Virus record (IMG/VR): IMGVR_UViG_3300025117_000094
Span: 1-48,719 of that record
Source: a virus
Strand: one strand, 5' to 3'
DNA length: 48,719 bases
Numbering within the stretch: the first letter of the stretch is position 1; each line of letters starts with the position of its first letter. This document shows, piece by piece, positions 5,996 to 38,157 of the stretch. The translations under genes were made by a program, and so were the position numbers. The notes beneath the pieces were generated by a model that did not search any database, was not told the origin of the DNA, and was given only the letters and a program-made list of their open reading frames with translations.

Positions 5996-6784
5996 TTATT
6001 TACATTGCATATCATAATATGAACATCCTTCTAATGAATGTGCTTTTCTATTGCAATCTTCACAAAGTGTTACCCCAATATCCAAATCCAACGATTCAAG
6101 TGGATTCCAATGTATGCCCTCGACATGGTGAGCTACTAAATTATCTGTAGAACCACATTTAACACACTTATAATCGTCTCGTTCCAGTATCATCTTACGC
6201 CAATCTGCTTGAAGTTTTGGATCTCTGTCTGGTTCTTTGTTTTGTCTTTCTTCCCACTCTTTTGATCCCGGTTGAAAGTGTCTATAAGAATTAAATCCAT
6301 ATAATGGGCAAACACTCTTACAACTGTCTGAACAATATAATCTACATTCTCCTGGGTTTTTTCCATTTAAACAATTAATCCTATTTTTTACTTCTCTATT
6401 AGTAGGATAATAATATTCTTTGCAATATGTACATCTAACCATTAAATACCCATTTTCATCAGATATTGGATCTTCTTCTACAGTTAGTTGATTAAAATAA
6501 GTAGAATAAAGAGATTTAGATTTATTATATTCTTTTATATGCTCTTTGTTTCTCTCTTTATTATTTTCATAATATTCTTTTTTATATTTCTTTCCTCGTT
6601 CTTTTATTCTATCAAAATTGTTTTTACGATATTCTTGCCTACGTTCTTTTATTCTTTCTTTGTTGTTCTCATTATATTCTCTATCACAATCTTTACATGA
6701 TCGCTTTAATCCATCTTTAGTAGCTCTATTCCTACTAAACTTCTCAACTTCCAACTCTCTTTTACATTTCGAGCAAGTCTTCAT
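5996..6784 (-). CDS. HNH endonuclease, copy 1
   Basis: A 262-residue protein in four parts: an N-terminal zinc ribbon (TCSKCKREL...CKDCDREY), a Lys/Glu-rich linker of repeating Y/K-E-NNKER units, a central Cys module (VRCTYCKEYYYP... LYCSDSCKSVCPLYGF), and a C-terminal HNH nuclease (CVKCGSTDNLVAHHVEGIHW ... LCEDCNRKAHS). It is one of four paralogs here and has the shortest linker. Such enzymes are usually free-standing homing endonucleases. It overlaps the start side of the 6762 gene by 23 bases, so it is inserted without disrupting a frame. Confidence 0.9.
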   Translation of the reverse strand: MKTCSKCKRELEVEKFSRNRATKDGLKRSCKDCDREYNENNKERIKERRQEYRKNNFDRIKERGKKYKKEYYENNKERNKEHIKEYNKSKSLYSTYFNQLTVEEDPISDENGYLMVRCTYCKEYYYPTNREVKNRINCLNGKNPGECRLYCSDSCKSVCPLYGFNSYRHFQPGSKEWEERQNKEPDRDPKLQADWRKMILERDDYKCVKCGSTDNLVAHHVEGIHWNPLESLDLDIGVTLCEDCNRKAHSLEGCSYYDMQCK

Positions 6785-8446: not shown

Positions 8447-11152
8447 TTAGATTTCACACTTTCCGGTACTACATTGAACATCTTCACTAGTAAAATGGTC
8501 ATTAACTTTAGTTTCTTCTTTGATTATCTGTCTAACCTCCTCTTCAGAGAGTTTCTGATAGATCTGATCTTTCCTACATCCATCTACGTAAACAGTAAGT
8601 CCAACTAATTGTCTAGAATACTCCAACAACCAATCTTTTAATTGATCATGAGTAGTAGTAGACGGAAGTGATTGTGTCTTCGAAATAGACGAATCATTTA
8701 GCCTTTGGATTGTGGCTGTAGTCTCAAAATGAGACTCAGCATCTAGATCCAATGCATCAACAAAATAATCAACTTTTTCTCCAGATAAAAGTAGTTCCTT
8801 GTATAAAGGATTAATATAAGTTCGTTCCCCCACTCTATCTTTTCTTTTATATGCCTTATAAGGTAAAGGTTCAATACCACTAGTAACATCTGTAATAAGC
8901 GATGTAGTACCGGAAGGAGGAAAAGACAAAACTGAAGAATTCCTAATTCCGTACTTCTTTATCTCTAATCTAATTTTAGCTGGTAGTTGTTTAATAAATT
9001 TAGAATTCATATAAGGCCACATTATATAGCCAGGAAAAGGACCACGTTCTTTAGCTAATTCAATAGATGCTTTATAAGTTTCGTTTCTCATAAATCTAAT
9101 TATATCATCTATTTTATTTAGTGCTTGCTGACTGCCATATTTAATTTTATTATTTATCAAATAACTGCCTAATCCCATAATACCAATTCCAATTCTTCTA
9201 GCAGATAGGGTAGCTTCTTTCATTTCTGGAAATGAATAAACATTCATATCCAATACATTATCTAACATTCGAACCATTGTTCTAATTGCATCTCCAAATT
9301 CGTCCCAAGAAAACCTACTACCTGATTGGAAATTAGGTAAAACTAAACTACCTAACACGCAAGAGGTATTCTTAGGTAAATTTAATTCCCCACAATTTCC
9401 TACGTTACTTCCTCCAGACCAATAAGTATGTGAATCATTATCCACAGTTAGGTAATATACTGCTTCTTCAGAAACAAATTCTTTTTCTACAATATCAAAA
9501 GTTTCCTTTGATTTACAATTATCATATTTACTTTTTTCTGCTATAATACTACTATACAACAGATCCATTTTATATTGTTGAATGAATCCAATTATAGAAT
9601 AAAATTTCTCTCTATCACCAGTAATGTTTACAATATAGCTTGCTCTTGGTGTATAAACTCCGTTACTAAATTGGATAGGTTTCTTATAAAGATCTGAAGT
9701 CACATAAGATCTTATACCTAATGCAGATAGCATTAACTGCACATCTTCAACAATTGAAAAAGAAGATGCAGCAAGCTGTATTCTATACTTTCTACCACTA
9801 GGAATAACACTACCATTAGCTGAATACAGTCCTCTAAGAAAAGAAGCCATGACATCTCTACTTCCAAATTTATACCTATCAGGTACTTTTCTAAGAAAAG
9901 TTTTTGGTAGTTCTTCATGTTTTATATCAGTACGTATTTCATATGCAGTAGGATTCAATCCAGGTCTATATTTAGTGATTAGATTAGCCACTTCTGATGT
10001 AAAATAATCTTGATCCTTCTCTCCTATAAAAAGATGCACTAAATTATTAGATGCTTTATGTACCGAACCATCACCTAAAACAAGACCACCCATTACTACT
10101 TCTGGAATAACTTGAATATCATTTTTATAATACCCAGGTAAGGAATCAATTGAATCTGCAATATCTACTTCTATTTTTTCTCCATTAGATACTATCTTAT
10201 GATCTTGTGTACCATAAAATACAGAAGACGTTGTTCTGTACTTGTACACTTTATCTATTTTACTAAATCCCTTTCTTATAACTTTAGTCCATCCTTCAGA
10301 ACTCCAAATTTCATCATTTATGGATATGTCTTTTATGGTTTTTATTCCAGACTTAGTTAATACAGTAGCCCACTCAGGCTGACAAAGATTAAGTGCCTCT
10401 ACTGGAAGATAATAATATGTGTTTGTAATTTTCATTTTATCTAAATTCACTATTCCGGGTTCACCTGACATAAGCATGTTCTCTGTTATTTTACTAAACA
10501 GGTCAGGTGCCCAAATTTCTCCATACTCTACACCATCGAACTGGAACTTCCATTTCTCTTTTTGCTCAACAGCATCAAGAAATTTATTTGTAACTCCAAT
10601 ACTAATATTAAAATTATTTAATTTAGAATGATCTAATTTGGCATCCATAATGTCTACTACTTCTGGATGACTAATATCTATTATGGGTAAGCATCCACTG
10701 CGACGATTCCCGCCCGACTCTACTGTGTCCAATACAGCACTGATAGCTTCTAGAAAAGAAAGCATACCAGAACTATTCCCACCTTTTAATTTTATAGGAG
10801 CACCCTTCGGTCGTAATTTAGGAGCACATCCAACACCACCACCTTCTGCATTTAGAACTAACGCCATATGTAGAAATCGACCTATTGAATTAATACTGTC
10901 GTTTAATTCAAGAACGTGACAGTTTAATACTTTACCAGATCTAGTTCCTGCATTTCTAAGAACTCTTCCTCCAGGTATGGCTTTCATATTAAATATAATA
11001 TTATAGAATTTCTCTGCCCAAAATTCTTTATTTCCATTTTCATTAGCAGCTATAGCATTGGCTACTCTTTTACAACATCCGGCCCAATCCTCACCTTCGA
11101 GGAAGTAGCGACTAGTAGCTACTGCTTGAGCATTATCTGATAATACAGTCAT
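8447..11152 (-). CDS. nrdJ: Adenosylcobalamin-dependent (class II) ribonucleotide reductase with intein
   Basis: A 901-residue precursor that after splicing would be 571 residues. Extein motifs of class II reductase are clear: LNCHVLEL with C78, NAEGGGVGCAPKLRPKGAP, GNRRSGCLPIIDISHPE, LNNFNISIGVTNKF, the active-site CGEL (C587, E589), FPPSGTTSLITDVTSGIEPL, and a C-terminal redox pair CSTGKCEI (C894, C899). Class II enzymes make deoxynucleotides without oxygen using B12, so the phage can replicate in an anaerobic or microaerobic host that has cobalamin. The intein occupies residues 257-586. No small subunit gene is present or needed. ATG overlaps the previous stop as TAATG. Confidence 0.92.
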   Translation of the reverse strand: MTVLSDNAQAVATSRYFLEGEDWAGCCKRVANAIAANENGNKEFWAEKFYNIIFNMKAIPGGRVLRNAGTRSGKVLNCHVLELNDSINSIGRFLHMALVLNAEGGGVGCAPKLRPKGAPIKLKGGNSSGMLSFLEAISAVLDTVESGGNRRSGCLPIIDISHPEVVDIMDAKLDHSKLNNFNISIGVTNKFLDAVEQKEKWKFQFDGVEYGEIWAPDLFSKITENMLMSGEPGIVNLDKMKITNTYYYLPVEALNLCQPEWATVLTKSGIKTIKDISINDEIWSSEGWTKVIRKGFSKIDKVYKYRTTSSVFYGTQDHKIVSNGEKIEVDIADSIDSLPGYYKNDIQVIPEVVMGGLVLGDGSVHKASNNLVHLFIGEKDQDYFTSEVANLITKYRPGLNPTAYEIRTDIKHEELPKTFLRKVPDRYKFGSRDVMASFLRGLYSANGSVIPSGRKYRIQLAASSFSIVEDVQLMLSALGIRSYVTSDLYKKPIQFSNGVYTPRASYIVNITGDREKFYSIIGFIQQYKMDLLYSSIIAEKSKYDNCKSKETFDIVEKEFVSEEAVYYLTVDNDSHTYWSGGSNVGNCGELNLPKNTSCVLGSLVLPNFQSGSRFSWDEFGDAIRTMVRMLDNVLDMNVYSFPEMKEATLSARRIGIGIMGLGSYLINNKIKYGSQQALNKIDDIIRFMRNETYKASIELAKERGPFPGYIMWPYMNSKFIKQLPAKIRLEIKKYGIRNSSVLSFPPSGTTSLITDVTSGIEPLPYKAYKRKDRVGERTYINPLYKELLLSGEKVDYFVDALDLDAESHFETTATIQRLNDSSISKTQSLPSTTTHDQLKDWLLEYSRQLVGLTVYVDGCRKDQIYQKLSEEEVRQIIKEETKVNDHFTSEDVQCSTGKCEI
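9395..10384 (-). mobile_element. Intein with LAGLIDADG homing endonuclease inside nrdJ
   Basis: 330 residues from Cys257 (CQPEWATVLTKSGIKTI) to Asn586 (SHTYWSGGSNVGN), followed by extein Cys587. Block B TQDH (T315, H318) and the C-terminal VYYLTVDNDSHTYW block are present; the penultimate residue is Gly rather than His. Two dodecapeptide motifs mark a LAGLIDADG endonuclease: VMGGLVLGDGSV (353-364) and FLRGLYSANGSV (438-449). The second has Asn where a catalytic Asp is usual, so cleavage may be weakened. Insertion is directly before the radical cysteine of the CGE motif, so the host enzyme is inactive until splicing. Confidence 0.9.
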
Positions 11153-15855: not shown

Positions 15856-18024
15856 TTAATATTTTATTTTCTCTGTTCCAAGCTTCAAACTTACTTCATA
15901 CCCACCAACCTTCATTGTTGTATCGTCTCTAGACGAGAACTCTTCAAACCAAGACTTACCAAGAATAACAGCAAACTTAGCTTTTTGAATTCTACTTCTA
16001 ACACCTTTCAACATTGTCTGACATTCAGCAATCTCACCATTAATCTCATTAATGTTTTTTTCTTCAAAAAGTATAATATAGTCACCATAAGATCCATAAA
16101 TAAGTTCTTCAGAAGCAGTAAGTTTCTTACCAGATTGTTCTTTTTTAATAACATCATCAATCTTAGGTAGAGAAGAAAATCCTTTAATTGAAATAGAAAT
16201 AGACTTCGCCATATAATAATCAGAAGAATCCATCTTCTCAGTTGGAGGTGAATAACCATTCTTAGTAATACCCAAATCCATAAGATACTTAATCTGCTCT
16301 TCTGACAATCCCTCAAAGCCAGTAAGCAGCTCTTTTTCGGGTGAAAGTTTCTCTTTAAAATATTTCAATACCTTCATATCAGACTGATAATATAACTCAT
16401 TTAATGCCCAACCAAACAAAACTTCTGCTGAAGTATAAGACTTTGCAATCTTCCTATTCATGATTGGAAGAACAGACAAATCCAGAATAGTAATATCTCC
16501 ATCAGTACTAGCAATCAAATCAGGATGAACCTTAATCTTGTCATAAACATTCTTAGTAATAGAAACAGGAAGCTTAGTTACATTCAACATACCATCTTTA
16601 ATAAGAGTGTAATTCCTCCATACGTGAGTATCAAAAGTGTTATCATCAAATCCAAGTTTCTTATAATTCTTATCCAGTTTAATATACCCAGGAATTCTAG
16701 CTAGAAGTGAAAGATTCAAAAGGTTCTTATTCCACACCAGGTCAGACATTCTACAGCTTACATCCAAATGAGCTTCAAATTTAGGATACCCCTCTTTTGG
16801 AACTGAAGGAATACCAATCCTCTTATAATGAAACGCTGGATGATAAGGATAAAAATGTGAATCAGACAACATATCAAGCAAATCAAGAACACAGAAAGCA
16901 TCATCTTGAGGCAGATAATTTGTATTCCTCCCCGATACAAATCTCTTATTAGGATTAACAACAGCATTTTTAATTAACTCTTCTACCTTACCATACTCTT
17001 CATTAGTAAAAGCATTGTTCATTTTAGTAATAAGATACTTATCACCAAGAACACCAAGAACACTCAATGCCTTATCATTCTGGCATTTCTGAGAAAGAAT
17101 ATAAGAAGCAGCATACACACCCTTTACAAAGTTGTCAATCTTAGATGTAGCAGCATCAACAGCAGAATCAGTAAGATTGACTTCTTCACCACCATCTACT
17201 GGAATAAACAATTTATCAGACAGACGGAACAACCAGTTCTTTCCTTTTCTAGTAGGAAGAAACATAATACCATTGATGCTTTCATCATACTGGTATACGT
17301 TTATGTCTGTTCCATTAATAGAGAAATAAATCTCACCATTAGTAGGTTTGTCAAGCAGTACTCTAATTCTACCTTGAGCATCTTTTACGTTCTCAATGAA
17401 CTCATTCAGTGAAATACTGAATTTCTCAAGATCAGAACTGTGAGTAAGAGAACCACCAAATGCTTCTGCCATTTGAGACATAAGCTCTTTATTATAATAG
17501 TTACCATAACCAACTAGAAGAGATGCTGTTATATCATAACGAATTCCATCAATAGCTTGAAAGATAGCAGTAATCTCTTTGTTATAATTAGAGACAACTG
17601 GATAACCATCTGAGAGAAAGACTACAGCAAATCTAGGAGTAAGAACTTTCAAGTCACTAATAACTTGTTTTGTACTGGCAATTATTTCAGAGAAGCAAGT
17701 CAAATTCAAAGACATCTTATTTTTTCTAAGAATAGACTCCAATGTAGCATAATCTGATTCATCGGAAATCTTAAATCCTTTAAGGATAAAGTTATGCTGA
17801 CCTTCAGAAGAAAACCAACCCAAAGTAAGATAATCCCCAATGGGAAGTTTCTTAGACCTGTTAATCAGATCTTCAATCAAATGAGGTAGCGTATGATACA
17901 TACTACCACTTCGATCTATAATCCACACATGATTAGTGGTCTCATTTATCTTCTCTTCGATTGCTTTCTCAGATACTTCAACTTGACTCAAATACAAATC
18001 TTTATTAATTTTCAGATATCTCAT
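15856..18024 (-). CDS. Large von Willebrand A domain protein
   Basis: A 722-residue protein. Residues 30-230 form a VWA domain with a complete metal site: DRSGSM (D37, S39, S41), a threonine in SLNLTCFSEII, and VVFLSDGYP. The long remainder is mixed, with an ISFxNGTDINVYQ section and a C-terminal segment rich in Lys/Glu helices. VWA proteins bind partner proteins through the metal ion. It sits beside a second VWA gene; phage VWA pairs are of unknown function. GTG/TTG starts were not needed: ATG 18024 has a purine-rich upstream. Confidence 0.85.
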   Translation of the reverse strand: MRYLKINKDLYLSQVEVSEKAIEEKINETTNHVWIIDRSGSMYHTLPHLIEDLINRSKKLPIGDYLTLGWFSSEGQHNFILKGFKISDESDYATLESILRKNKMSLNLTCFSEIIASTKQVISDLKVLTPRFAVVFLSDGYPVVSNYNKEITAIFQAIDGIRYDITASLLVGYGNYYNKELMSQMAEAFGGSLTHSSDLEKFSISLNEFIENVKDAQGRIRVLLDKPTNGEIYFSINGTDINVYQYDESINGIMFLPTRKGKNWLFRLSDKLFIPVDGGEEVNLTDSAVDAATSKIDNFVKGVYAASYILSQKCQNDKALSVLGVLGDKYLITKMNNAFTNEEYGKVEELIKNAVVNPNKRFVSGRNTNYLPQDDAFCVLDLLDMLSDSHFYPYHPAFHYKRIGIPSVPKEGYPKFEAHLDVSCRMSDLVWNKNLLNLSLLARIPGYIKLDKNYKKLGFDDNTFDTHVWRNYTLIKDGMLNVTKLPVSITKNVYDKIKVHPDLIASTDGDITILDLSVLPIMNRKIAKSYTSAEVLFGWALNELYYQSDMKVLKYFKEKLSPEKELLTGFEGLSEEQIKYLMDLGITKNGYSPPTEKMDSSDYYMAKSISISIKGFSSLPKIDDVIKKEQSGKKLTASEELIYGSYGDYIILFEEKNINEINGEIAECQTMLKGVRSRIQKAKFAVILGKSWFEEFSSRDDTTMKVGGYEVSLKLGTEKIKY

Positions 18025-18676: not shown

Positions 18677-19597
18677 TTACTTACACTGCATATCATAATA
18701 TGTACATCCTTCTATTGAGTGGGCTTTCCTATTACACGATTCACATAGAGTCACACCTACATCTAAATCCAACGATTCAAGGGGATTCCAATGTATGCCC
18801 TCGACATGGTGGGCAGTTAGGTTTTCAGTGACACCACATTTAACACATTTATAACCATCACGCTCTAGTATCATTTTATGCCAATCTGCTTGTAATACTG
18901 GATCTCTATCTGGTTCTTTATTCTGACGTTCCTCCCATTCTTTGGTTCCTGGTTGATAATCCATCCCCGGTTTAAATTTATATAAAGGACAGGAATGTTT
19001 GCAAGTGTCTGAACAATAAAGTCTGCATTCTCCTTCAATTGTTCCATTTAAAGCTCTAATTCTATGCTGTACTTCTAAATTAGTTGGATAAAAATATTCT
19101 TTACAATGAGTACATCTGACTTGTAGATAGCCTTCATTGTCAGATATTGGATCTTCTTCTACAGTTAATTTAACAAAGTAAGTAGAAAACAAAGCTTTAT
19201 CTTTATTATATTCTTTTTTTCGTTCTTTTATTTTATCTTTATTAGCCTCACGATATTCTTTTACTTTATTTATATTATATATATAATATAAACTACTATA
19301 TTTCTTTTTTTTATTTTTATTTATTTCATAATAAAGTTTATCATATTCTCTTTTCTTATCTTTATTATTTTCTCGGTATTTCTTTTTTTCATCTTTGTTA
19401 TTCTCATAATACTCTTTCTGATATTTTTTTAAATCATCTTTTTTATCTAAAAACCTTTTTCTACCATACTCACTAGCACAATCTTTACACCTACGTTGTA
19501 GTCCGTCTTTAGCTGATGTGTTTTTACTAAATCTACCAACATCTAACTCTCTTTTACACTTTGGACATATTTTAGTTGTAATATTTATATCAGTCAC
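18677..19597 (-). CDS. HNH endonuclease, copy 2
   Basis: A 306-residue paralog of the 5996-6784 protein and the longest of the four. Zinc ribbon CPKCKRELD...CKDCASEY, a long linker of KKYRENNKDKK- and YEINKNKKKKY-type units, the VRCTHCKEYFYP and LYCSDTCKHSC modules, and the C-terminal HNH (CVKCGVTENLTAHHVEGIHW). GTG start at 19597 overlaps the stop of the gene upstream (TAGTG). The C-terminal DNA is almost identical to the copies at 5996 and 37267, showing recent duplication or gene conversion. Confidence 0.9.
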   Translation of the reverse strand: MTDINITTKICPKCKRELDVGRFSKNTSAKDGLQRRCKDCASEYGRKRFLDKKDDLKKYQKEYYENNKDEKKKYRENNKDKKREYDKLYYEINKNKKKKYSSLYYIYNINKVKEYREANKDKIKERKKEYNKDKALFSTYFVKLTVEEDPISDNEGYLQVRCTHCKEYFYPTNLEVQHRIRALNGTIEGECRLYCSDTCKHSCPLYKFKPGMDYQPGTKEWEERQNKEPDRDPVLQADWHKMILERDGYKCVKCGVTENLTAHHVEGIHWNPLESLDLDVGVTLCESCNRKAHSIEGCTYYDMQCK

Positions 19598-20091: not shown

Positions 20092-21846
20092 TTATCTCAC
20101 CATATAAGACGTTTCTTTATTTTTCTTAATTGCAACCACATTATCAAACCTAGACTTCAACATATCACTATGGGACACTGCAATTACTGTACCAGAACTA
20201 CTTGATTTGGTCTTTAAAAGACCAAAAACTGATGACATTCCTTCATCATCTAAAGATAGATCCAACACCTCATCAAGTATCATAAAGTCTGTTACTCTGA
20301 ACAAGTCATAGAAGGAGAAGATCGTTGCTATCTTTATCCTCTGCTTCTCACCACTAGAGAATGAATTGTGGGCTTTGTTCTTTGAGTATATCCTAAATGA
20401 CACCTTTTCTCTATACTCACCACTTTTCAATTCTGATAAATCAGATACTTCTACATACAAATCACAGTTCATGTCAACTAAATAAGAATTGATCTTATCC
20501 TGCAATGAACCTAACACCTTACTGCACTTCATATTAGGTATTCCAGCCTTACCAAATCCAGTTACCCAAAATTCATCCTTCTTTCTCTTCTCCTTTTCAG
20601 CCTCTATAGCTATATTATAGCTACTTACTTCTTGTTCTAGATTTGCAATCTTAGATTCTATATCTACTAATTGGTCTTCATAATGATTCACTTCTGATTT
20701 GATTTTATCAATCTCTACATATAACTCATTCTTTCTTATATCTACATTCCTATTAAATTCTTCATATTCAGATATTAATTTTTCAGCACTTAGGAGTTTA
20801 CTATTAATGTCCTTATTAACTTTAAGTATATCTCTTTTCTTTTTCTTCAACTCTTCCAATTTTGATACAGTAGTATATAAATCTTTTTCCTGTAATGCAA
20901 TTCTATTATTCAAATCATCTGATTGCTCCTTCAATTCAGACAACTCATTACAGAATTTCTTAGTATATGGACATATAGCTTGTGGTATAACAACATTCTT
21001 GTCAGACAAGAGACTATTTAACTTTGCTTCCTTATCTGCTTTTGTAGATACAAGACCATCAATCTCCAAATCAAATATAGATTCATTCTGCAAAGATGCA
21101 CGTAATACTTCCACATTTGTCTTTATGTCCTCAACCGATTTAGGAATCAAACTTTGGATTTGTTTATTAACTCTATCTACTTTATTTTGTATCTCCTTAT
21201 CAAAGTTCTTAGACAAACTTGTAAGTTTTTCTTTCAAGTTCAGAGATGATTCTATGTTAGACTTAATTTTGAATATTTTTTTCTCTATTGAATTTATATT
21301 ATCATCTATATCTTTAATACTTTCTTTAGCTTTTGCTTGAAGCGTTTCGTACTTTGAAAGGTCTAAAATCTGGTATAGCACACGTTTCCTATCGCTTTCT
21401 TTAGCTTCAACGAAAGAGATAGAGTTATTAGTAAATATAGATGATGCAAAAAGAATCTCTGGAGAAACATTTAGAAACTCAGATATGATCTTTTGAGTTT
21501 CTTTTCTAGTACTGCCTGTAATATCATTACCATTAACTACAAACTTTGTTAGATTATTATATGTAGAATGATTTCTATATTTAGAAATAGTACAACTTTG
21601 ATTGTCAAGCTCAAAGTCCATTTCAAGAACACAATTACTACCATGATCCTTTACTAAGTCATCGACCGATTCTATATCATCAACTGAATCAAATAGCAAG
21701 TACTCTATTGCCTGACGAATAGAGCTTTTACCAGAACCGTTCTTTCCTTGAACAAGACAAAGACCCAACTTATCAAAGTTGTCTATTTCTAAACTTTTCC
21801 AACTTCTAAAATTTTCAAGTCTAAGCTTCTTTATCGACAGCATCAT
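20092..21846 (-). CDS. SbcC/Rad50-like (phage gp46-type) recombination ATPase
   Basis: A 584-residue SMC-like ATPase. N-terminal Walker A QGKNGSGKSS, long coiled-coil arms, a central zinc-hook-like ICPYTKKFCNELSEL, and C-terminal signature SFSSGEKQRIKIA with Walker B FMILDEVLDLSL. With the SbcD-like nuclease it forms the DNA-end processing complex. The start is not certain: ATG 21846 (or 21843) follows a TTG with no clear ribosome site and overlaps the 79-residue gene by about 26 bases. It is short for the family because the coiled coils are reduced, as in phage versions. Confidence 0.9.
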   Translation of the reverse strand: MMLSIKKLRLENFRSWKSLEIDNFDKLGLCLVQGKNGSGKSSIRQAIEYLLFDSVDDIESVDDLVKDHGSNCVLEMDFELDNQSCTISKYRNHSTYNNLTKFVVNGNDITGSTRKETQKIISEFLNVSPEILFASSIFTNNSISFVEAKESDRKRVLYQILDLSKYETLQAKAKESIKDIDDNINSIEKKIFKIKSNIESSLNLKEKLTSLSKNFDKEIQNKVDRVNKQIQSLIPKSVEDIKTNVEVLRASLQNESIFDLEIDGLVSTKADKEAKLNSLLSDKNVVIPQAICPYTKKFCNELSELKEQSDDLNNRIALQEKDLYTTVSKLEELKKKKRDILKVNKDINSKLLSAEKLISEYEEFNRNVDIRKNELYVEIDKIKSEVNHYEDQLVDIESKIANLEQEVSSYNIAIEAEKEKRKKDEFWVTGFGKAGIPNMKCSKVLGSLQDKINSYLVDMNCDLYVEVSDLSELKSGEYREKVSFRIYSKNKAHNSFSSGEKQRIKIATIFSFYDLFRVTDFMILDEVLDLSLDDEGMSSVFGLLKTKSSSSGTVIAVSHSDMLKSRFDNVVAIKKNKETSYMVR

Positions 21847-22060
21847 CAATACCAAGTTTCATAGCATAGACAATATCATTCTGAATTGGATACCCAAGAT
21901 CAGTAATTCTATGCTCAACATCAGTTACTTCCAAACGTAGCTGATCCAACTCCTGATTCATAAAGTTAATAATATCTCCTATTTTATAAGACACACTTGT
22001 ATTGTCACATACAATTGGTTTGATACTTTCATCATTCAAAATTTTAATTGTCAATATCAT
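21821..22060 (-). CDS. Hypothetical small protein between the SbcC- and SbcD-like genes
   Basis: A 79-residue protein with an N-terminal beta part (TIKILNDESIKPIVCDN) and a helical LDQLRLEVTDVEHRITDLG segment. It overlaps both neighbours, so all three are translated together. A structural or regulatory part of the end-processing complex is a reasonable guess, not shown. Confidence 0.65.
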   Translation of the reverse strand: MILTIKILNDESIKPIVCDNTSVSYKIGDIINFMNQELDQLRLEVTDVEHRITDLGYPIQNDIVYAMKLGIDDAVDKEA

Positions 22061-27100: not shown

Positions 27101-28024
27101 TTACAACCTTGTCAATTTAAGTAGATTGAAAGTAAGATCGGCCTCTGCTGCTTCTGGAGAAAGAGGCTTAGAAATAATATCATAGAAGTCAATAAGCATA
27201 TTAGCATCATTTATTTTAAAGTAATCACTCCCTATTCTACTTTTTAATAGATTCATGAGACCAACTCTAATTGCTTGAGGTGTCTTACTTTTCAATGTAT
27301 CCTTCAGTGTTTTCTTAATAGCGTTCCAATCTGGAATTGGCTTCATCATAACTACTTTAAGTAGTGTTAAAATATCAGAACTTTCCTCACCCATAATAGC
27401 AAGTTCAAGAAGATAAGAAGCCTCTTCAGCGTCATCTACATTCTTAACCTTGTCAAGTCCTGTTAGTATTCGTCTAGGAACACCACGACTTTTCTCAATA
27501 ATGATTGCTTTTATAGGTTTAGATAGTTGTATATTTTCTTTAGAACATACTGAATTAATAAGAGCAAGAGATTCTTGATCTGAAATAGGACGTAATGTAA
27601 ATTGTTTGAAACGATCTAAAAGTGCAGTCTTTAATTTCTCCACTGTAGTAGTACAAGCAACTACAAGTGTATTTCCTTTAAGTCCCTCAAGAGGAATAAG
27701 TAGATCTTGTTGTCCTCTATCAAGTATTCCGTGTATTTCATCTATAATAATTGCTTTCTTTTCACCAAATAGTGTAGGGGTATTTATTTGTGCAGTTATT
27801 GTTCTTATATCATCTATAAGAAGATCAAAGCCATTGTAGTGATATATGTTTTCTTTCGGTACTCCAAAATCTCTAGCTAAGATATATGCTATTGTTGTTT
27901 TACCAAGTCCAGGTTCACCAAGAAGCATTACTGGTTTATCAAGCTTCAGTGACCTCAGAGACTTCTTTACTATCTGATTCCCTAGTACTTCCTCCCATGT
28001 CTGTGGTCTGTAACGGGTGTGCAT
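27101..28024 (-). CDS. Clamp-loader AAA+ subunit (RFC small subunit/DnaX-like)
   Basis: A 307-residue AAA+ ATPase with TRYRPQTWEEVLGNQ, Walker A GEPGLGKTT, Walker B IIIDEIHGI, arginine-finger TTTVEKL...DRFKQF, and sensor II SRGVPRRI. With the clamp at 34785-35783 it forms a phage clamp-loading machine. Start taken at ATG 28024 after GAGG; an ATG four codons earlier is more deeply embedded in the previous gene, which overlaps by 86 bases. Confidence 0.9.
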   Translation of the reverse strand: MHTRYRPQTWEEVLGNQIVKKSLRSLKLDKPVMLLGEPGLGKTTIAYILARDFGVPKENIYHYNGFDLLIDDIRTITAQINTPTLFGEKKAIIIDEIHGILDRGQQDLLIPLEGLKGNTLVVACTTTVEKLKTALLDRFKQFTLRPISDQESLALINSVCSKENIQLSKPIKAIIIEKSRGVPRRILTGLDKVKNVDDAEEASYLLELAIMGEESSDILTLLKVVMMKPIPDWNAIKKTLKDTLKSKTPQAIRVGLMNLLKSRIGSDYFKINDANMLIDFYDIISKPLSPEAAEADLTFNLLKLTRL

Positions 28025-28580
28025 TAATAACCTCAATAATTGATTTTAATGGATAAAGATATTTACGATTAGATGACAATATTATTTTATCAGATATCAA
28101 ATTTGTATTATAAAATATTCTATTTAATGAAATCTCATGACTAACAAGTGCTGAACAGACATTATTTAATACAATAGGATTACTATGATTTATAATCAAT
28201 GAAGATATACCACTAAAATTATTCTTTAATATATTCATCCAAGTTCTATTATCAAACTTAGAAGCTATCAGAATAAATTGGTTAGTCATGTATCCAAACT
28301 TAGGATTCACTAACCTCTGTGCTTCGTCGTACATATCAAGATTAACAACAGTAGAAATAAATATACCATCAGCAACCAACCTTGGATTCAACCAAATGAA
28401 CTCGTCCAGACAATCTATAATATCGCCATAAAAAACAATATTACTAATTCCACATACAATTGCATTATACAAATCTGAGTATGATTTATCTGAATCCTTC
28501 TCTATTTCAATAAATAAAGAAACAGGATAGTTACTCACTAATCCTTCATTATATAAAATATTTGAATTTTTTATTTTCAC
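27939..28580 (-). CDS. Hypothetical protein, clamp-loader neighbour
   Basis: A 213-residue protein with no recognised motif, mostly alpha/beta. The C-terminus overlaps the clamp-loader gene in another frame, and it abuts the zinc protein gene at its start. In other phages a second, often diverged clamp-loader subunit sits here, so this could be that subunit (gp62-like); residues do not prove it. Confidence 0.6.
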   Translation of the reverse strand: MKIKNSNILYNEGLVSNYPVSLFIEIEKDSDKSYSDLYNAIVCGISNIVFYGDIIDCLDEFIWLNPRLVADGIFISTVVNLDMYDEAQRLVNPKFGYMTNQFILIASKFDNRTWMNILKNNFSGISSLIINHSNPIVLNNVCSALVSHEISLNRIFYNTNLISDKIILSSNRKYLYPLKSIIEVINAHPLQTTDMGGSTRESDSKEVSEVTEA

Positions 28581-28885: not shown

Positions 28886-29734
28886 TTAGTTACAGGCTTT
28901 ACCACATGCTCTAAAATCACCACACTGGTCTTTACATACTGTATCATCAGGATCAAAAAATTCTTTACGACCAAAACACTTCTTAGTAGAAGTAGTTGAC
29001 GTAGGAGCACTAACCTTGTCTTTACCCTCCCACGGTGGCCTTTCCTCTTCCTTCTTTTTCTCAGACTCATTGAATGTTTCAACTGAAATAGGTTCAGTAC
29101 CTTCAATCTGAGCCTGAGTTACATTCCAGTGTCTCCACAAATACATCAAGGGAAACTTCTTTTCCATATTCCAAGGAGGAAGAAGTCTAACCTTAAGAGA
29201 CTCATCTACCTTCAACTCTGTAAGTTTAAAAATTTCCTTATTCTTAATAACCTCAACAATATCATCAAGATTATTAACATTATCTAGTACAGATTTAGGA
29301 ACATCAAACTCTGCCTTCTCCAAATCAGCATCGGCATCATACTTATTCTGACCATCAACAAACCGTTTAGAGAGAATAATACAACGCCCTTTACCAGAAA
29401 TAGGATGTGCAATATCTCTCCATTCACCTTTCTGAACCTTATCTACAATCTTACCACCAGCCTGTTTTCCCATCTCAACAATGATTTGCTTTTCAGGATT
29501 AGCTGGAAGAACAAAGTTACCATAATAAGTAATCTTTGCCTGAATCTTCTTAGCAATCTTGATCTGCTCTTCTCTATTAGAATTATAGAGAGCATTTACA
29601 GCCTCACAAACCTTACAAGTTTGTTTATACTGTTTCTTAGGACAAACAATTCCAGAGCTTCCACCTTTACTTTCAGACTGCAATTTCTTAGCTGATTCTC
29701 CATCCAACATCCAAGGATCATGTTTTTCTGCCAT
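28886..29734 (-). CDS. T4 gp32-like single-stranded DNA-binding protein
   Basis: A 282-residue protein. The zinc-type segment VCPKKQYKQTCKVCEAVNALY, the YYGNFVLP strand region, and GKGRCIILSKRF match the gp32-type core. The C-terminus adds an unusual cysteine-rich tail (ECFGRKEFFD-like cluster: CFGRKEF...CKDQCGDFRACGKAC) that gp32 lacks, and an acidic linker. It likely coats ssDNA during replication and recombination; it lies between replication and recombination genes. Confidence 0.75.
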   Translation of the reverse strand: MAEKHDPWMLDGESAKKLQSESKGGSSGIVCPKKQYKQTCKVCEAVNALYNSNREEQIKIAKKIQAKITYYGNFVLPANPEKQIIVEMGKQAGGKIVDKVQKGEWRDIAHPISGKGRCIILSKRFVDGQNKYDADADLEKAEFDVPKSVLDNVNNLDDIVEVIKNKEIFKLTELKVDESLKVRLLPPWNMEKKFPLMYLWRHWNVTQAQIEGTEPISVETFNESEKKKEEERPPWEGKDKVSAPTSTTSTKKCFGRKEFFDPDDTVCKDQCGDFRACGKACN

Positions 29735-29752: not shown

Positions 29753-30247
29753 TTAATAATTTAGATTAGTTCCAGCTTTATAAAGTTTATCATCTACAGT
29801 TAAATTCCCAGTTCTCTTTAAGAGTAATTGTCCAAGTTCCTGTAGTCTATAACCTCTTGTCTGCCACGCATCAACGAGTCCAGAGACATAATTCTTTATC
29901 TCGTTTGCTTCGTTCAATTCCCTTTGTAGCTCTTGCATTTCTTTGTAAAGAAATAAACGTGTCTTTCTCACCTCCTGTAGTGCTGATTGTGGGAAGGACT
30001 TTCCTTCCTTTTTCTGATAACTTTCCACCTCCTTTTGTATTAGTTCCGCCTCCAATATTTTTGTCTTTATTTGGAGGTCGTCCACGCTTTTTACGGCTTG
30101 GGAGTACCACCTGTGAAACCTCGCCAACTTCTTCGGGTGTGTCATTAATAAGGCTTCGAACTCGAATTGATTGCTGAATTTTATATCCAGATCTAGTTCG
30201 ATTTCTTCTACGCTTAACTGGACAAACTTCTCTAAATCGCTCTTCAT
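29753..30247 (-). CDS. Helical protein, UvsY-like mediator candidate (overlapped gene)
   Basis: A 164-residue, almost wholly helical protein (LSVEEIELDLDIKFSN, KKLARFHRWYSQAV, a long coiled-coil LFLYKEMQELQRELNEANEI, then VSGLVDAWQTRGYRLQELGQ). RBS GAGGAAGG precedes ATG 30247. The layout and its place next to the ssDNA-binding protein suggest a recombination mediator like UvsY; low certainty. Over residues 1-126 the third codon positions are GC-rich (GAG, GCG, AGG, GTG) unlike its own downstream codons, because another gene shares the DNA there. Confidence 0.75.
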   Translation of the reverse strand: MKSDLEKFVQLSVEEIELDLDIKFSNQFEFEALLMTHPKKLARFHRWYSQAVKSVDDLQIKTKILEAELIQKEVESYQKKEGKSFPQSALQEVRKTRLFLYKEMQELQRELNEANEIKNYVSGLVDAWQTRGYRLQELGQLLLKRTGNLTVDDKLYKAGTNLNY

Positions 30248-30383
30248 TTCCTTCCTCAGTTATATGCTCTTTCAGATAATCTATCAAACTTTTACATTTT
30301 TTTGCTTTTTTACAATTATCGCAAACTTCTATTGCAACAAAGCGAGGCTTTTGTGGCCTCTTTTTACACCATATGAGATTCAT
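29871..30383 (-). CDS. Zinc/AT-hook-like protein overlapping the next gene by 377 bases
   Basis: A 170-residue protein. The N-terminal half has VAIEVCDNCKKAKKCKS and REVCPVKRR (possible metal sites); residues 95-104 form an AT-hook-like RKKRGRPPNK. Start taken at ATG 30383, one base after the HNH copy 3 stop. Its codons keep the phage's normal A/T-ending preference across the overlap, which argues it is a real gene, not a shadow of the 164-residue protein that shares 29871-30247 in another frame. Confidence 0.7.
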   Translation of the reverse strand: MNLIWCKKRPQKPRFVAIEVCDNCKKAKKCKSLIDYLKEHITEEGNEERFREVCPVKRRRNRTRSGYKIQQSIRVRSLINDTPEEVGEVSQVVLPSRKKRGRPPNKDKNIGGGTNTKGGGKLSEKGRKVLPTISTTGGEKDTFISLQRNARATKGIERSKRDKELCLWTR

Positions 30384-30384
30384 G

Positions 30385-31272
30385 TTAACACCTAGTTTTA
30401 CACCAACTATATCTATGTACTTCATGATGGCAATCTATACACAATGTAACACAATTATCAACATCTGCGCTTTCAATATCATTCATATTTACAGGATCAA
30501 TGTGGTGACAATGAAGCTGTATGTCATCTACAGACTTTCCACATTTCACACATCGATATTCGTCCCTAGCTAAAACAAGTTGTCTCAATTGAGGTTGAAC
30601 CTCACGAGAGGTAGCTTCTTCTAGTCCGGGAGTGATTGTTTGTTTATGAAATATAGGACACGCTCTCTTACAATTATCTGAACAATAGAGTCTATGTTCT
30701 CCCTCGTGTTTTCCATCAAGAGCCCTAATCCTAGTCATAACATTTCTATTAGTTGGATAAAAATACTTACCACAATATGTACACTTTACTTGCATATAGC
30801 CATCAATATCTGATATTGGAGCTTCATCAACAGTCAGTTTAGAACTAAATGTATTAAACAAAGATTTCGAATTTTTATATATTTTTCCAGTTTCCTTAAA
30901 TTTTTCATTATTTATAATATAATATTTACTACTATACTTTTTTCTTTTTTCTTTATTGTTTTTATAATAGTTTATACCATATTCTACTCTTTCCTCTCTA
31001 TTGTTTTTATAATATTCTCTGCTGTATTCAGCACTCTTTTCTTTATTTTTTTCTCTATAGTTTTTACTAGATTCTCTTATTTTTTCTTTGTTATTTTCAC
31101 AATATTTTTTGGAGTATTCCTTTCTTTTAAGCTTATTTATTTCATTAACTTCTTTTACACAAATCTTACAATAATGACATAATCCGTCCTTTCTACTTCT
31201 ATTTTTAGAAAATAGATTAACATCTAATTCTCTTTTGCATCTTGAACACATTTTAGTCGTAATACTATCCAA
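30385..31272 (-). CDS. HNH endonuclease, copy 3
   Basis: A 295-residue paralog, more diverged than the other three. Zinc ribbon MCSRCKREL...CKICVKEV, a linker of KNYREKNKEKS and YYKNNREERVEYG units, VKCTYCGKYFYP, and a C-terminal HNH (CVKCGKSVDDIQLHCHHIDP ... CVTLCIDCHHEVHRYSW). It is wedged between the DNA polymerase gene (6-base gap) and the zinc/AT-hook gene. Its HNH differs from the near-identical trio, so it was acquired or split earlier. Confidence 0.88.
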   Translation of the reverse strand: MDSITTKMCSRCKRELDVNLFSKNRSRKDGLCHYCKICVKEVNEINKLKRKEYSKKYCENNKEKIRESSKNYREKNKEKSAEYSREYYKNNREERVEYGINYYKNNKEKRKKYSSKYYIINNEKFKETGKIYKNSKSLFNTFSSKLTVDEAPISDIDGYMQVKCTYCGKYFYPTNRNVMTRIRALDGKHEGEHRLYCSDNCKRACPIFHKQTITPGLEEATSREVQPQLRQLVLARDEYRCVKCGKSVDDIQLHCHHIDPVNMNDIESADVDNCVTLCIDCHHEVHRYSWCKTRC

Positions 31273-31278
31273 ACACCA

Positions 31279-33687
31279 TCACCAAACCTTTTCAGAATCT
31301 GCTAAATTTTTTCTACAGACTACAACATCTGTAACTAGAGACACATCATTTAACATATCAAACGGATAATTAATATTAATCATCGTTCTCTGCAACAATT
31401 CTGCCACTTCATCAATACATTGCTCAGAGCACTCAATTATTATTTCGTCATGTACTTGCATCACTAGTGCAGCATCATAATTATTCATTTCTAATTGCTT
31501 GTCAATCTCAATAATAGCCAACTGTACTAGTTGCCAAGCAGAACCCTGTATGACATGATTTACAGCCTCTCTAGCAGTATTAGTATCGGTAACTGCGTGA
31601 TATTTCCACCTTCTTTGTAATCCGAAGTAGGTCTCAGCTATTCCAGTTTCAATTGTAAACTGCTTCTGCTTTTCAATACCCGACGCTAAACCAGTGAATC
31701 TTTGAAAAAGACCATCTATATAACCCTGAGCCGTAGACTTAGTTGTGTTTAAATTATAAGATAGTCCATCCGCTCCCTCTCCGTAGATAACACCAAATAC
31801 AACCGCCTTACCATTCTTTCTAGCCTTAGTAACTTCTAAGTTTCCTTTTTCATACTCAGCTCTAAAATCCTCATAAGACAATTTCCAAACATTTAATTCT
31901 GGAACAGATGATGTAATAAGAGAATGTAGGTCTTCACCCACATTATTACAATAACTAATTAAATCTTCATCATAATATATAACAGATGCAACCCTAACCT
32001 CTAACTGCCCTTCGTCTGCCTTGAGAAAGATCATCCCGTCTCTAGGGATAATACAACTCTTTGCTTCACGAGTCAAGTTTAAAAGATTTGGATCTCTTGA
32101 ATTACTCCTACCGCTAGCCACCGAATGTATGCTATAATTAGTATGTGCAACACCGTCATCAAGTTTTGGTAAAACACCAGAAAAGAAATTCTTTCTTACA
32201 GCTTGATATGCTCTATAAAACTGCATCAACTCACAATACTCATTTCCTTGTTCAGCATATCTAGCCATCTCTACTTTTCCAATACTAGGAGCACCTTCTG
32301 GAAATTTACTTGAAGGATCTGTTTTCTTTAAAACAGGCAGCTTATAGTAATCTAATAAAAGCCATTTTATATGTGCCGAACTTCGTGGATTAAATGATTC
32401 CCTAAACCACTTAGAACATTCCTTTACTCCTTCTAACTCTCTCACTTGATTAAAAGCACCATCAGCCAACTTCTTATAATGCTTATCCCATTCATCAACT
32501 TTTTCTAAATCATACCTTAATCCCCTTATTGACATTTTAGTCAATGACTTATCACACGGTATTAAGATATTATGTAAAAGGAAAGGCCATTTCTCATTGG
32601 CGTTAATCTGTTCTTCTTGCTTCTTCTTTATAATTGGTAACACACCTATGTCATTAGCACCATACTGACAAAGTTTGCCCATGTCAAACACTTTATGAGC
32701 ACCACCAGCTTTGTATGTCTCTTCATCATACCCGCCGGATTCGGGAGCATACTTCCAAGTCAATGTGGTTAGATCGTTATTCCCAACACCTGATATAATA
32801 TACTCAGCTAACATAGTATCCCATATTACTGCAAAATCCGTGCCATACTTCACGTTTAGGAACTTAAAATCGAAATCTATTACACCCTGACCTACTATTT
32901 TTGCCTTTTTCAGTATAGGATTTAAGTCATCTAAGCATTTCTCAAACACCTCTTTTGTAATAATAAATTTCGGGTCTTTCTCAGTCCCTATTTGAACAAT
33001 CCTCAACGTGTCTCTATATGGAGAGAGTCCGGTTGTTTCTGTATCTAGAAGTAATACTTCACTTTCTTCCAATATTGGAAGAACTTGGTAAAGTTTCTTT
33101 ACTGAATCAATTAACTTGTATTCATAATTCTTAATACTAACAGGTTTAGAATCTAAGAGATGTGGAATTTCCATAAACATGTCCTTTAGACTATCAATCT
33201 TTGAACCATCATAAAATATTGCAGCAGGATGATAGACTGGATATACATTATTTTTAATCTTATCTGAGAACATCAATCTACCAATGTACTTATGAAAATC
33301 ATTCTTACCAGTTAAAGCATAGAATGCTGTCTCACCTAATGCTACAATCAATTTAGGTTTAATCTTTTGAATCTCAAAATATAAATACGGAAAGCAAGCA
33401 TCTAGAATTTTTCTATTTGGTTTCTCATTATCTTGGATATAGCATTTACAAGCATTCGTAACTGCTACATCCTTTCTAGTTAGATGAATATCTGAAAGTA
33501 ATTCATCTAGTACCTTACCGGCTTTACCTATAAATGGAACAAGAACACCATTTAATAGTTTACCATCTACCTCTGTTTTTCCAGAAGCCTCTCCTACAAA
33601 CAATATTTCAGCTTGTGGATTACCATGAAATGGTTCACAATTTATTTTATATGGATTCTTGTATGCTTCACATCGAGTACATTTCAT
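31279..33687 (-). CDS. Uracil-DNA glycosylase (family 4-like) fused to family A DNA polymerase
   Basis: An 802-residue replicative enzyme. Residues 1-180 match a uracil-DNA glycosylase with Fe-S-type cysteines (C3, C6, C80/C82, C98), FVGEASGKTEVDGKLLNG, VPFIGKAGKVL and the VYPVYHPAAIF motif. Residues 205-400 are a 3'-5' exonuclease (LLLDTETTG, D215/E217, and DFDFKFL). The polymerase part has motif A KADEGQLEVRVAS, motif B RKNGKAVVFGVIYGEG and motif C MQVHDEIIIEC. The same fusion is known in phages such as SPO1. Proofreading and uracil surveillance are combined in one chain. It ends six bases before HNH copy 3. Confidence 0.93.
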   Translation of the reverse strand: MKCTRCEAYKNPYKINCEPFHGNPQAEILFVGEASGKTEVDGKLLNGVLVPFIGKAGKVLDELLSDIHLTRKDVAVTNACKCYIQDNEKPNRKILDACFPYLYFEIQKIKPKLIVALGETAFYALTGKNDFHKYIGRLMFSDKIKNNVYPVYHPAAIFYDGSKIDSLKDMFMEIPHLLDSKPVSIKNYEYKLIDSVKKLYQVLPILEESEVLLLDTETTGLSPYRDTLRIVQIGTEKDPKFIITKEVFEKCLDDLNPILKKAKIVGQGVIDFDFKFLNVKYGTDFAVIWDTMLAEYIISGVGNNDLTTLTWKYAPESGGYDEETYKAGGAHKVFDMGKLCQYGANDIGVLPIIKKKQEEQINANEKWPFLLHNILIPCDKSLTKMSIRGLRYDLEKVDEWDKHYKKLADGAFNQVRELEGVKECSKWFRESFNPRSSAHIKWLLLDYYKLPVLKKTDPSSKFPEGAPSIGKVEMARYAEQGNEYCELMQFYRAYQAVRKNFFSGVLPKLDDGVAHTNYSIHSVASGRSNSRDPNLLNLTREAKSCIIPRDGMIFLKADEGQLEVRVASVIYYDEDLISYCNNVGEDLHSLITSSVPELNVWKLSYEDFRAEYEKGNLEVTKARKNGKAVVFGVIYGEGADGLSYNLNTTKSTAQGYIDGLFQRFTGLASGIEKQKQFTIETGIAETYFGLQRRWKYHAVTDTNTAREAVNHVIQGSAWQLVQLAIIEIDKQLEMNNYDAALVMQVHDEIIIECSEQCIDEVAELLQRTMININYPFDMLNDVSLVTDVVVCRKNLADSEKVW
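32830..32845 (-). promoter_or_regulatory. Sigma-54 site, perfect 12/12, inside the polymerase gene
   Basis: Minus strand TGGCACGGATTTTGCA, in codons for Tyr-Gly-Thr-Asp-Phe-Ala. ACG and GGC are uncommon choices in this AT-rich phage. Predicted start near 32819 would transcribe the polymerase remainder and the genes downstream. Chance within a coding region cannot be excluded. Confidence 0.45.
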
Positions 33688-37266: not shown

Positions 37267-38157
37267 TTAAGTTTTACATCTCATGTCATAATATGAACAG
37301 CCTTCCAATGAGTGTACCTTCCTATTACAATCCTCACAAAGTGTTACACCAATATCCAAATCCAAAGACTCAAGGGGATTCCAATGTATGCCCTCTACAT
37401 GGTGAGCAGTTAGGTTTTCAGTGACACCACATTTAACACATTTATAACCATCACGTTCTAAGATCATTTCACGCCATTGACGTTGTATTGATGCATCTCT
37501 ACTTGGTTTTTTCTTTTGATACTCTTCCCATTCTTTAGTTCCTGGTTGAAAACATTGATGTGGATGAAATCCATATAACGGACAAGAGTGCTTACAGATT
37601 TCTGAGCAATATAATCTGCGTTCTCCTTTTATTCTTCCATTTAAAGCTCCAATTCTACTTTTTACTTCTTGATTAGAAGGGTAAAAGTACTCTTTACAAT
37701 GAGTACATCTAACTTTTAAATATCCATCTTCATCAGATATCGGATCTTCTTCTATAGTTAGTTGATTACAATAAGTATAGTAAAGAGATTTAGACTTATT
37801 ATAGTTTTTATAATATTTTATTTTTTTATTTTTATTATTTTCACAATACCATTTATCATATTCTTTTAAAGACTCTTTGTTTATCTCACAATATCTTTTT
37901 CTCTCTTCTTTATGAGATTTGGTATATTCTCTCTTATATTCTTTTATTTCATCTTTATTATTACTATTATATTCTTTTTGATACTCTAATCTTTTTTTTC
38001 TATGAATTTTATAGTACTCACTATTATCTTTTTTATAACAATTTTTACATTTACAGCATAACCCATCTTTTTTAGACTTGTCTTTACTAAACTCACCAAT
38101 ATTTAACTCTTTATTACATTTAGAACAAATTTTAGTAACATCTAACAATATAATCAC
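37267..38157 (-). CDS. HNH endonuclease, copy 4
   Basis: A 296-residue paralog: KICSKCNKELNIGEFSKD ribbon, a linker of EYQKEYNSNNKDEI- and YCENNKNKK-type units, VRCTHCKEYFYP, LYCSEICKHSCPLYGF, and the C-terminal HNH (CVKCGVTENLTAHHVEGIHW). Its last ~110 codons are nearly the same as in copies 1 and 2. The GTG start at 38157 follows AAAGGG, or a TTG two codons on; uncertain. It lies six bases after the primase-helicase gene. Confidence 0.9.
   Translation of the reverse strand: MIILLDVTKICSKCNKELNIGEFSKDKSKKDGLCCKCKNCYKKDNSEYYKIHRKKRLEYQKEYNSNNKDEIKEYKREYTKSHKEERKRYCEINKESLKEYDKWYCENNKNKKIKYYKNYNKSKSLYYTYCNQLTIEEDPISDEDGYLKVRCTHCKEYFYPSNQEVKSRIGALNGRIKGERRLYCSEICKHSCPLYGFHPHQCFQPGTKEWEEYQKKKPSRDASIQRQWREMILERDGYKCVKCGVTENLTAHHVEGIHWNPLESLDLDIGVTLCEDCNRKVHSLEGCSYYDMRCKT

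Follow-up and report, generated by a model that had tools for sequence, protein, structure and literature searches.

Probable overprinting of a uvsY-like recombination mediator gene across a 377-nucleotide same-strand overlap in an uncultivated phage

Small viruses offer many documented cases of long same-strand gene overlaps; in DNA phages with genomes of tens of kilobases such overlaps are unusual, and gene callers tend to drop one of the two frames. On the minus strand of an uncultivated phage represented by an IMG/VR virus record (48,719 nt, the whole of which was analyzed and is referred to below as the window), two open reading frames (ORFs) share 377 bases, and the question that this locus raises is whether both frames are genes and, if so, which of the two is the newer. 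Both ORFs, as well as the overlap between them that had been described in an earlier note on this DNA, are present in the sequence (Table 1). The shared stretch makes up about three quarters of each gene, including 76% of the length of the UvsY-like protein, and is the longest same-strand ORF overlap within the window. The upstream gene, which encodes a small basic protein with a cysteine cluster, is in the +2 frame relative to UvsY, and UvsY is conversely in the +1 frame of the upstream gene. We consider it about 80% probable that this is a terminal same-strand overlap that arose by overprinting and in which both frames are kept by selection.

Table 1. Features of the overlapping gene pair and of its immediate surroundings (coordinates are those of the window)
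Feature	Coordinates	Strand	Basis
Upstream gene, 170-aa basic cysteine-containing, AT-hook-like protein	29871..30383	-	Start context; frame open against expectation
UvsY-like recombination mediator (predicted), 164 aa	29753..30247	-	PHROG, Pfam, synteny, T4 alignment, Foldseek
Shared 377 bases	29871..30247	-	UvsY codons 1-125, equal to the last 73% of the upstream gene
Cysteine cluster C21-x2-C24-x5-C30-x23-C54 of the upstream protein	30222..30323	-	Sequence; zinc binding putative
KKRGRPP, AT-hook-like core of the upstream protein (within the shared bases)	30072..30092	-	Sequence
Shine-Dalgarno-like GAGGAAGG, 5' of the uvsY ATG	30250..30257	-	Sequence
Shine-Dalgarno-like AGGTG, 5' of the ATG at 30383	30389..30393	-	Sequence; 5-nt spacing
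gp32-like single-strand DNA-binding protein, directly 3' of uvsY	28886..29734	-	Pfam gp32 1.2e-9; PHROG 1192 3.1e-9
HNH endonuclease gene, directly 5' of the upstream gene	30385..31272	-	Pfam HNH 2.2e-5; PHROGs HNH

In the direction of transcription, the minus strand carries a DNA polymerase gene (33687-31279), the HNH endonuclease gene, the upstream gene, the uvsY-like gene (hereinafter uvsY) and the gp32-like gene. According to the earlier note, both overlapping genes have good starts. This holds for the ATG of uvsY, which is preceded by GAGGAAGG; the start listed for the upstream gene, at 30425, falls within the HNH gene and lacks a Shine-Dalgarno-like motif, whereas the ATG at 30383 sits one base past the HNH gene stop. 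Because of this adjacency and of the AGGTG motif in front of it, the ATG at 30383 is probably the actual start of the upstream gene. The extent of the overlap is the same with either start, and C54, the final cysteine of the cluster in the upstream protein, is encoded inside it. The HNH gene itself is one of four minus-strand genes (5996-6784, 18677-19597, 30385-31272 and 37267-38157) with a similar cysteine-rich N terminus (C-x2-C...KEL...FSK), which look like dispersed paralogous HNH-type genes; among these, 30385-31272 matches HNH endonucleases. The polymerase (31279-33687, minus strand) belongs to family A and shows an N-terminal match to family 4 uracil-DNA glycosylase (residues 3-174, E 3e-31).

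The assignment of the 164-aa protein to the UvsY family, which had been proposed in the earlier note, draws on several weak yet concordant lines of evidence. The protein has matches to PHROGs 1069, 2058 and 231 at 7.5e-6 to 3.5e-4 (about 1e-5 for PHROGs 1069 and 2058, and 3.5e-4 for the UvsY-like PHROG 231), and scores 13.9 bits with the Pfam UvsY profile, under the cut-off of 22.8. A local alignment to T4 UvsY spans T4 residues 7-127 (shuffle P 0.001). The structure model is a helical hairpin of partly low confidence (mean pLDDT 67), for which the T4 UvsY chains rank first in the Foldseek PDB list (E 0.065); VIA-align returned generic helical hairpins, with no UvsY chain among the matches listed (best 50). 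The gene neighborhood is the one expected for UvsY, with the gp32-like gene directly 3' and a gene for a UvsX-like recombinase in the same strand block, and a profile combining this protein with two SPO1-type homologs retrieves further UvsY-like genes located just 5' of gp32-like genes. Because the profile, alignment and fold evidence combines with the UvsX-like and gp32-like module neighbors, the protein is likely a member of the UvsY family, and it can be predicted to load the UvsX-like recombinase onto single-stranded DNA held by the gp32-like protein.

The overlap is not a product of chance. In the null model, the UvsY amino acids were kept fixed, the codons were redrawn, and the stops in the second frame were counted over 125 codons. 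With the codon usage of the phage, 16.3 stops are expected and the exact probability of zero is 7e-12; when the GC content at third codon positions (GC3) is raised to match the overlap, the expectation remains at about 12 stops, and not one of 4000 draws was open. The most conservative nulls reach only about 1e-3 to 3e-4, which is a point against overprinting: the probability of an open frame is 1.2e-3 when the overlap's own skewed codons are redrawn and 3e-4 when they are permuted. Among the controls (125-codon windows from other genes, each in the two same-strand alternative frames), 0 of 548 tests were stop-free, and the ratio of observed to expected stops had a mean of 1.03 (sd 0.26). Stops are depleted in every third of the overlap taken separately, and past the stop of the upstream gene the same frame contains 5 stops vs 5.45 expected; stop depletion was not seen in the remaining same-strand frame over the overlap. 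The antisense frames are about as open as the two sense frames predict, and an antisense ORF of 106 codons, considered as a third gene, was rejected since its openness is explained by these sense frames.

The codons of uvsY are distorted over the same stretch. Read in the UvsY frame, the overlap has a GC content at codon positions 1/2/3 of 0.49/0.22/0.50; read in the upstream frame, it has 0.49/0.49/0.22. As pointed out in the earlier note, the UvsY third positions are GC-rich in the overlap and normal after it (GC3 of 0.50 and 0.18, respectively, against about 0.22-0.26 for the genome); likewise, the correlation of UvsY RSCU with that of the genome is r 0.09 in the overlap and 0.78 after it, and the corresponding value for the second frame is 0.53; for comparison, 33 other genes, over their first 125 codons, give 0.49-0.87. 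Codons ending in G or C account for 62 of the 125 UvsY codons in the overlap vs 32.6 expected and vs 40.6 +/- 4.6 among simulated open second frames, and GC3 is thus above what an open frame requires. In addition, T at the UvsY third position is depleted even at junctions incapable of forming stops (14 vs 24 expected), so that the second frame departs, at its first codon positions, from what stop avoidance by itself would produce. The tetrapeptide RGRP, the AT-hook core, arises in 0.15% of the simulated open frames; this motif was picked post hoc, so the figure is supportive and does not amount to a formal test. Counting against overprinting, simulated open frames have a mean codon-frequency score at least as good as that of the second frame.

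The A/T-ending codons of the upstream gene had been taken as normal in the earlier note. This pattern is partly automatic, because the third position of the upstream gene is the second position of UvsY, which is A/T-rich in this helical protein rich in K, E, Q and L; the low third-position GC of the second frame is by itself no evidence. A change-point fit of UvsY GC3 favors codons 129 and 147 almost equally, which places the composition break only roughly, and the end of the stop avoidance is sharper. Overprinting, to which the codon pattern had been ascribed in the earlier note, is the best explanation, given that stop avoidance and codon distortion run through the entire overlap and cease with the upstream-gene stop.

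The upstream protein is an orphan only within the libraries searched, where no relative was found in Pfam, NCBIfam, PHROGs, phage records or plasmid records. The designation as a zinc/AT-hook protein in the earlier note is correct in that the motifs are present; with no match in Pfam, PHROG or NCBIfam, these motifs are its sole basis. The protein is best described as AT-hook-like and not as a member of AT_hook, considering that only the core KKRGRPP is present and that no Pfam family is matched at E up to 10. A scan for the cysteine motif (C-x2-CKK-x2-KCK) produced 41 stretches, none of them a convincing relative and none adjoining a uvsY. For uvsY, the upstream gene, the polymerase, gp32 and UvsX, searches of viral contigs, phage records, plasmids and genome contigs detected no relatives close enough for a comparison of substitution rates. 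The structure model of the upstream protein is of low confidence and uninformative for a protein without relatives, and the tail is predicted to be disordered. Judging from the motif and the gene position, the protein probably binds AT-rich DNA, serving the replication and recombination module as an accessory; the cysteines are candidate zinc ligands.

The relative age of the two frames is indicated by the family to which uvsY belongs. The gene occupies the conserved position of this family, between the polymerase and gp32-like genes, and the equivalent second frame of T4 UvsY and of six further homologs contains 8-25 stops, so that the UvsY family is represented by seven homologs without the second frame and is the phylogenetically older of the two. 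Given that the family is old and conservatively placed and that its homologs lack the second frame, the tail of the upstream gene is probably the newer, overprinted part. Codon usage alone would make the second frame the older one, opposing the phylogenetic criterion. A basic product has been reported for +2 de novo frames, and older de novo genes take on genome-like codon usage (PMC8227390); the two criteria would thus agree if the overlap were an old one.

Among the alternatives, the one to be taken most seriously, even if we regard it as unlikely, is that the upstream gene is real and its function ends soon after the last cysteine, the rest being a passive by-product of unusual uvsY codons, for example in a uvsY derived from a GC-richer phage. 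The GC3 of the overlap is indeed about twice that of the genome, some other genes of the phage contain GC3-rich stretches of up to 0.44, and the tail, predicted to be disordered, has no relatives. Nevertheless, some 12 stops would be expected at matched GC3, the open frame stays improbable when the skewed codons of the overlap are used (P 1.2e-3), and the stop avoidance extends exactly to the stop of the second gene; furthermore, the last 39 UvsY codons are normal, and therefore uvsY as a whole is not foreign.

The two other explanations are considerably less probable. If the upstream frame were the older and the UvsY-like frame had been overprinted onto it, a scenario to which we attach little credence, the better agreement of the upstream frame with genomic codon usage (0.53 vs 0.09 for UvsY in the overlap) would be accounted for, and the codon-usage criterion of PMC8227390 would call this frame ancestral. 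Unlike a de novo frame, however, UvsY resembles an existing family across the whole overlap and occupies the usual site of this family before the gp32-like gene, and it is the upstream protein that has no known relative in the libraries searched. Least plausible of all is a fusion of the frames into one product, through a sequencing or assembly indel or through a programmed +1 frameshift at the UGA of the upstream gene. The frame relationship is compatible with such an event, in that a +1 slip at this stop would enter UvsY; yet uvsY is equipped with an ATG and a Shine-Dalgarno-like site of its own, and its alignment to the family begins close to the N terminus; inspection by eye revealed no known slippery motif, and a single indel cannot yield 125 codons open in two frames with such coding signals.

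Returning to overprinting of uvsY, we propose that the gene for the small basic cysteine-containing protein was extended through the older uvsY, in the +2 frame, and that selection then held the second frame open, with the synonymous codons of UvsY being re-chosen to suit the tail, including the AT-hook-like motif. Both frames are predicted to be translated. The simplest mode would be independent initiation at the two Shine-Dalgarno-like sites on one operon mRNA, which is likely because each gene has its own start and such a site. Ribosomes translating the upstream gene would cross the uvsY start and terminate inside uvsY, and, more speculatively, this translation could couple or limit the output of UvsY. 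The further suggestion that the newer frame dictates codon usage over 76% of the mediator gene, and that the two products share a module and have coupled dosage, is tentative and rather doubtful.

Overprinting itself is a known phenomenon; this case is unusual in its length, in its location on a recombination mediator gene and in a codon signal that is reversed. Virus overprinted genes have been reviewed (PMC8227390) and their distribution analyzed (PMC8903798). As in the viral pairs, there are two same-strand frames here, one from an older family and the other without relatives, and the newer product is basic and predicted to be disordered, as has been described for +2 de novo products (PMC8227390). 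The 377-nt length differs from the typical values for DNA viruses, where the median of the genome means is 15.6 nt and the median of +1 overlaps is 14 nt (PMC8903798); another difference is that the abnormal codon usage is found here in the older frame, and that the present case is known from sequence alone. T4 UvsY (PDB 4ZWT and others; gene in NC_000866) is similar to the protein described here in length and helical core, and the phage, like T4, encodes UvsX-like and gp32-like partners, whereas the sequence identity is low and T4 uvsY has 23 stops in the equivalent second frame. The gene order is shared with SPO1-type phages such as Lysinibacillus phage LysYB1 and Bacillus phage SBSphiC, in which a family A polymerase gene, small ORFs, and UvsY-like, gp32-like and RecA/UvsX genes follow one another; their UvsY-like proteins are 23-25% identical to the one in the window, and their genes lack an overlapping cysteine-rich or AT-hook-like gene. 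A search of the open-access literature for UvsY with overlapping reading frames revealed no such overlap among the matches listed.

With its conserved and functionally understood product, uvsY provides a fixed reference frame for gauging codon re-use in a core protein, and the case may test whether an overprinted frame can come to govern codon usage. A test of the kind used here, in which the first protein is fixed and the exact probability that a second frame stays open is computed, needs only a single genome and could reveal hidden overlaps in phage metagenomes.

Several other features of the window deserve mention. In the same gene block as uvsY, the C-terminal end of a 213-aa ORF lies over the start of the clamp-loader gene (27939-28036, minus strand), a shorter tail-over-start overlap of up to 98 bases, or about 86 bases from the likelier ATG at 28024. 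In the gp32-like gene (28886-29734, minus strand), the +1 alternative frame has 2 stops vs 6.6 expected in one 125-codon window, with no long ORF. A Leu-rich ORF of 102 codons (16008-16316, minus strand) lies inside a gene for a 722-aa protein (15856-18024); its frame has 1 stop vs 9 expected in the best window and possibly represents a second overlap or an effect of composition. An ORF of 213 codons (20699-21340, plus strand) is antisense to an SbcC-like gene (20092-21855) that has a GC3-rich stretch. Finally, residues 433-521 of the large subunit of ribonucleotide reductase (8447-11152, minus strand) correspond to a LAGLIDADG domain, suggestive of an intein.
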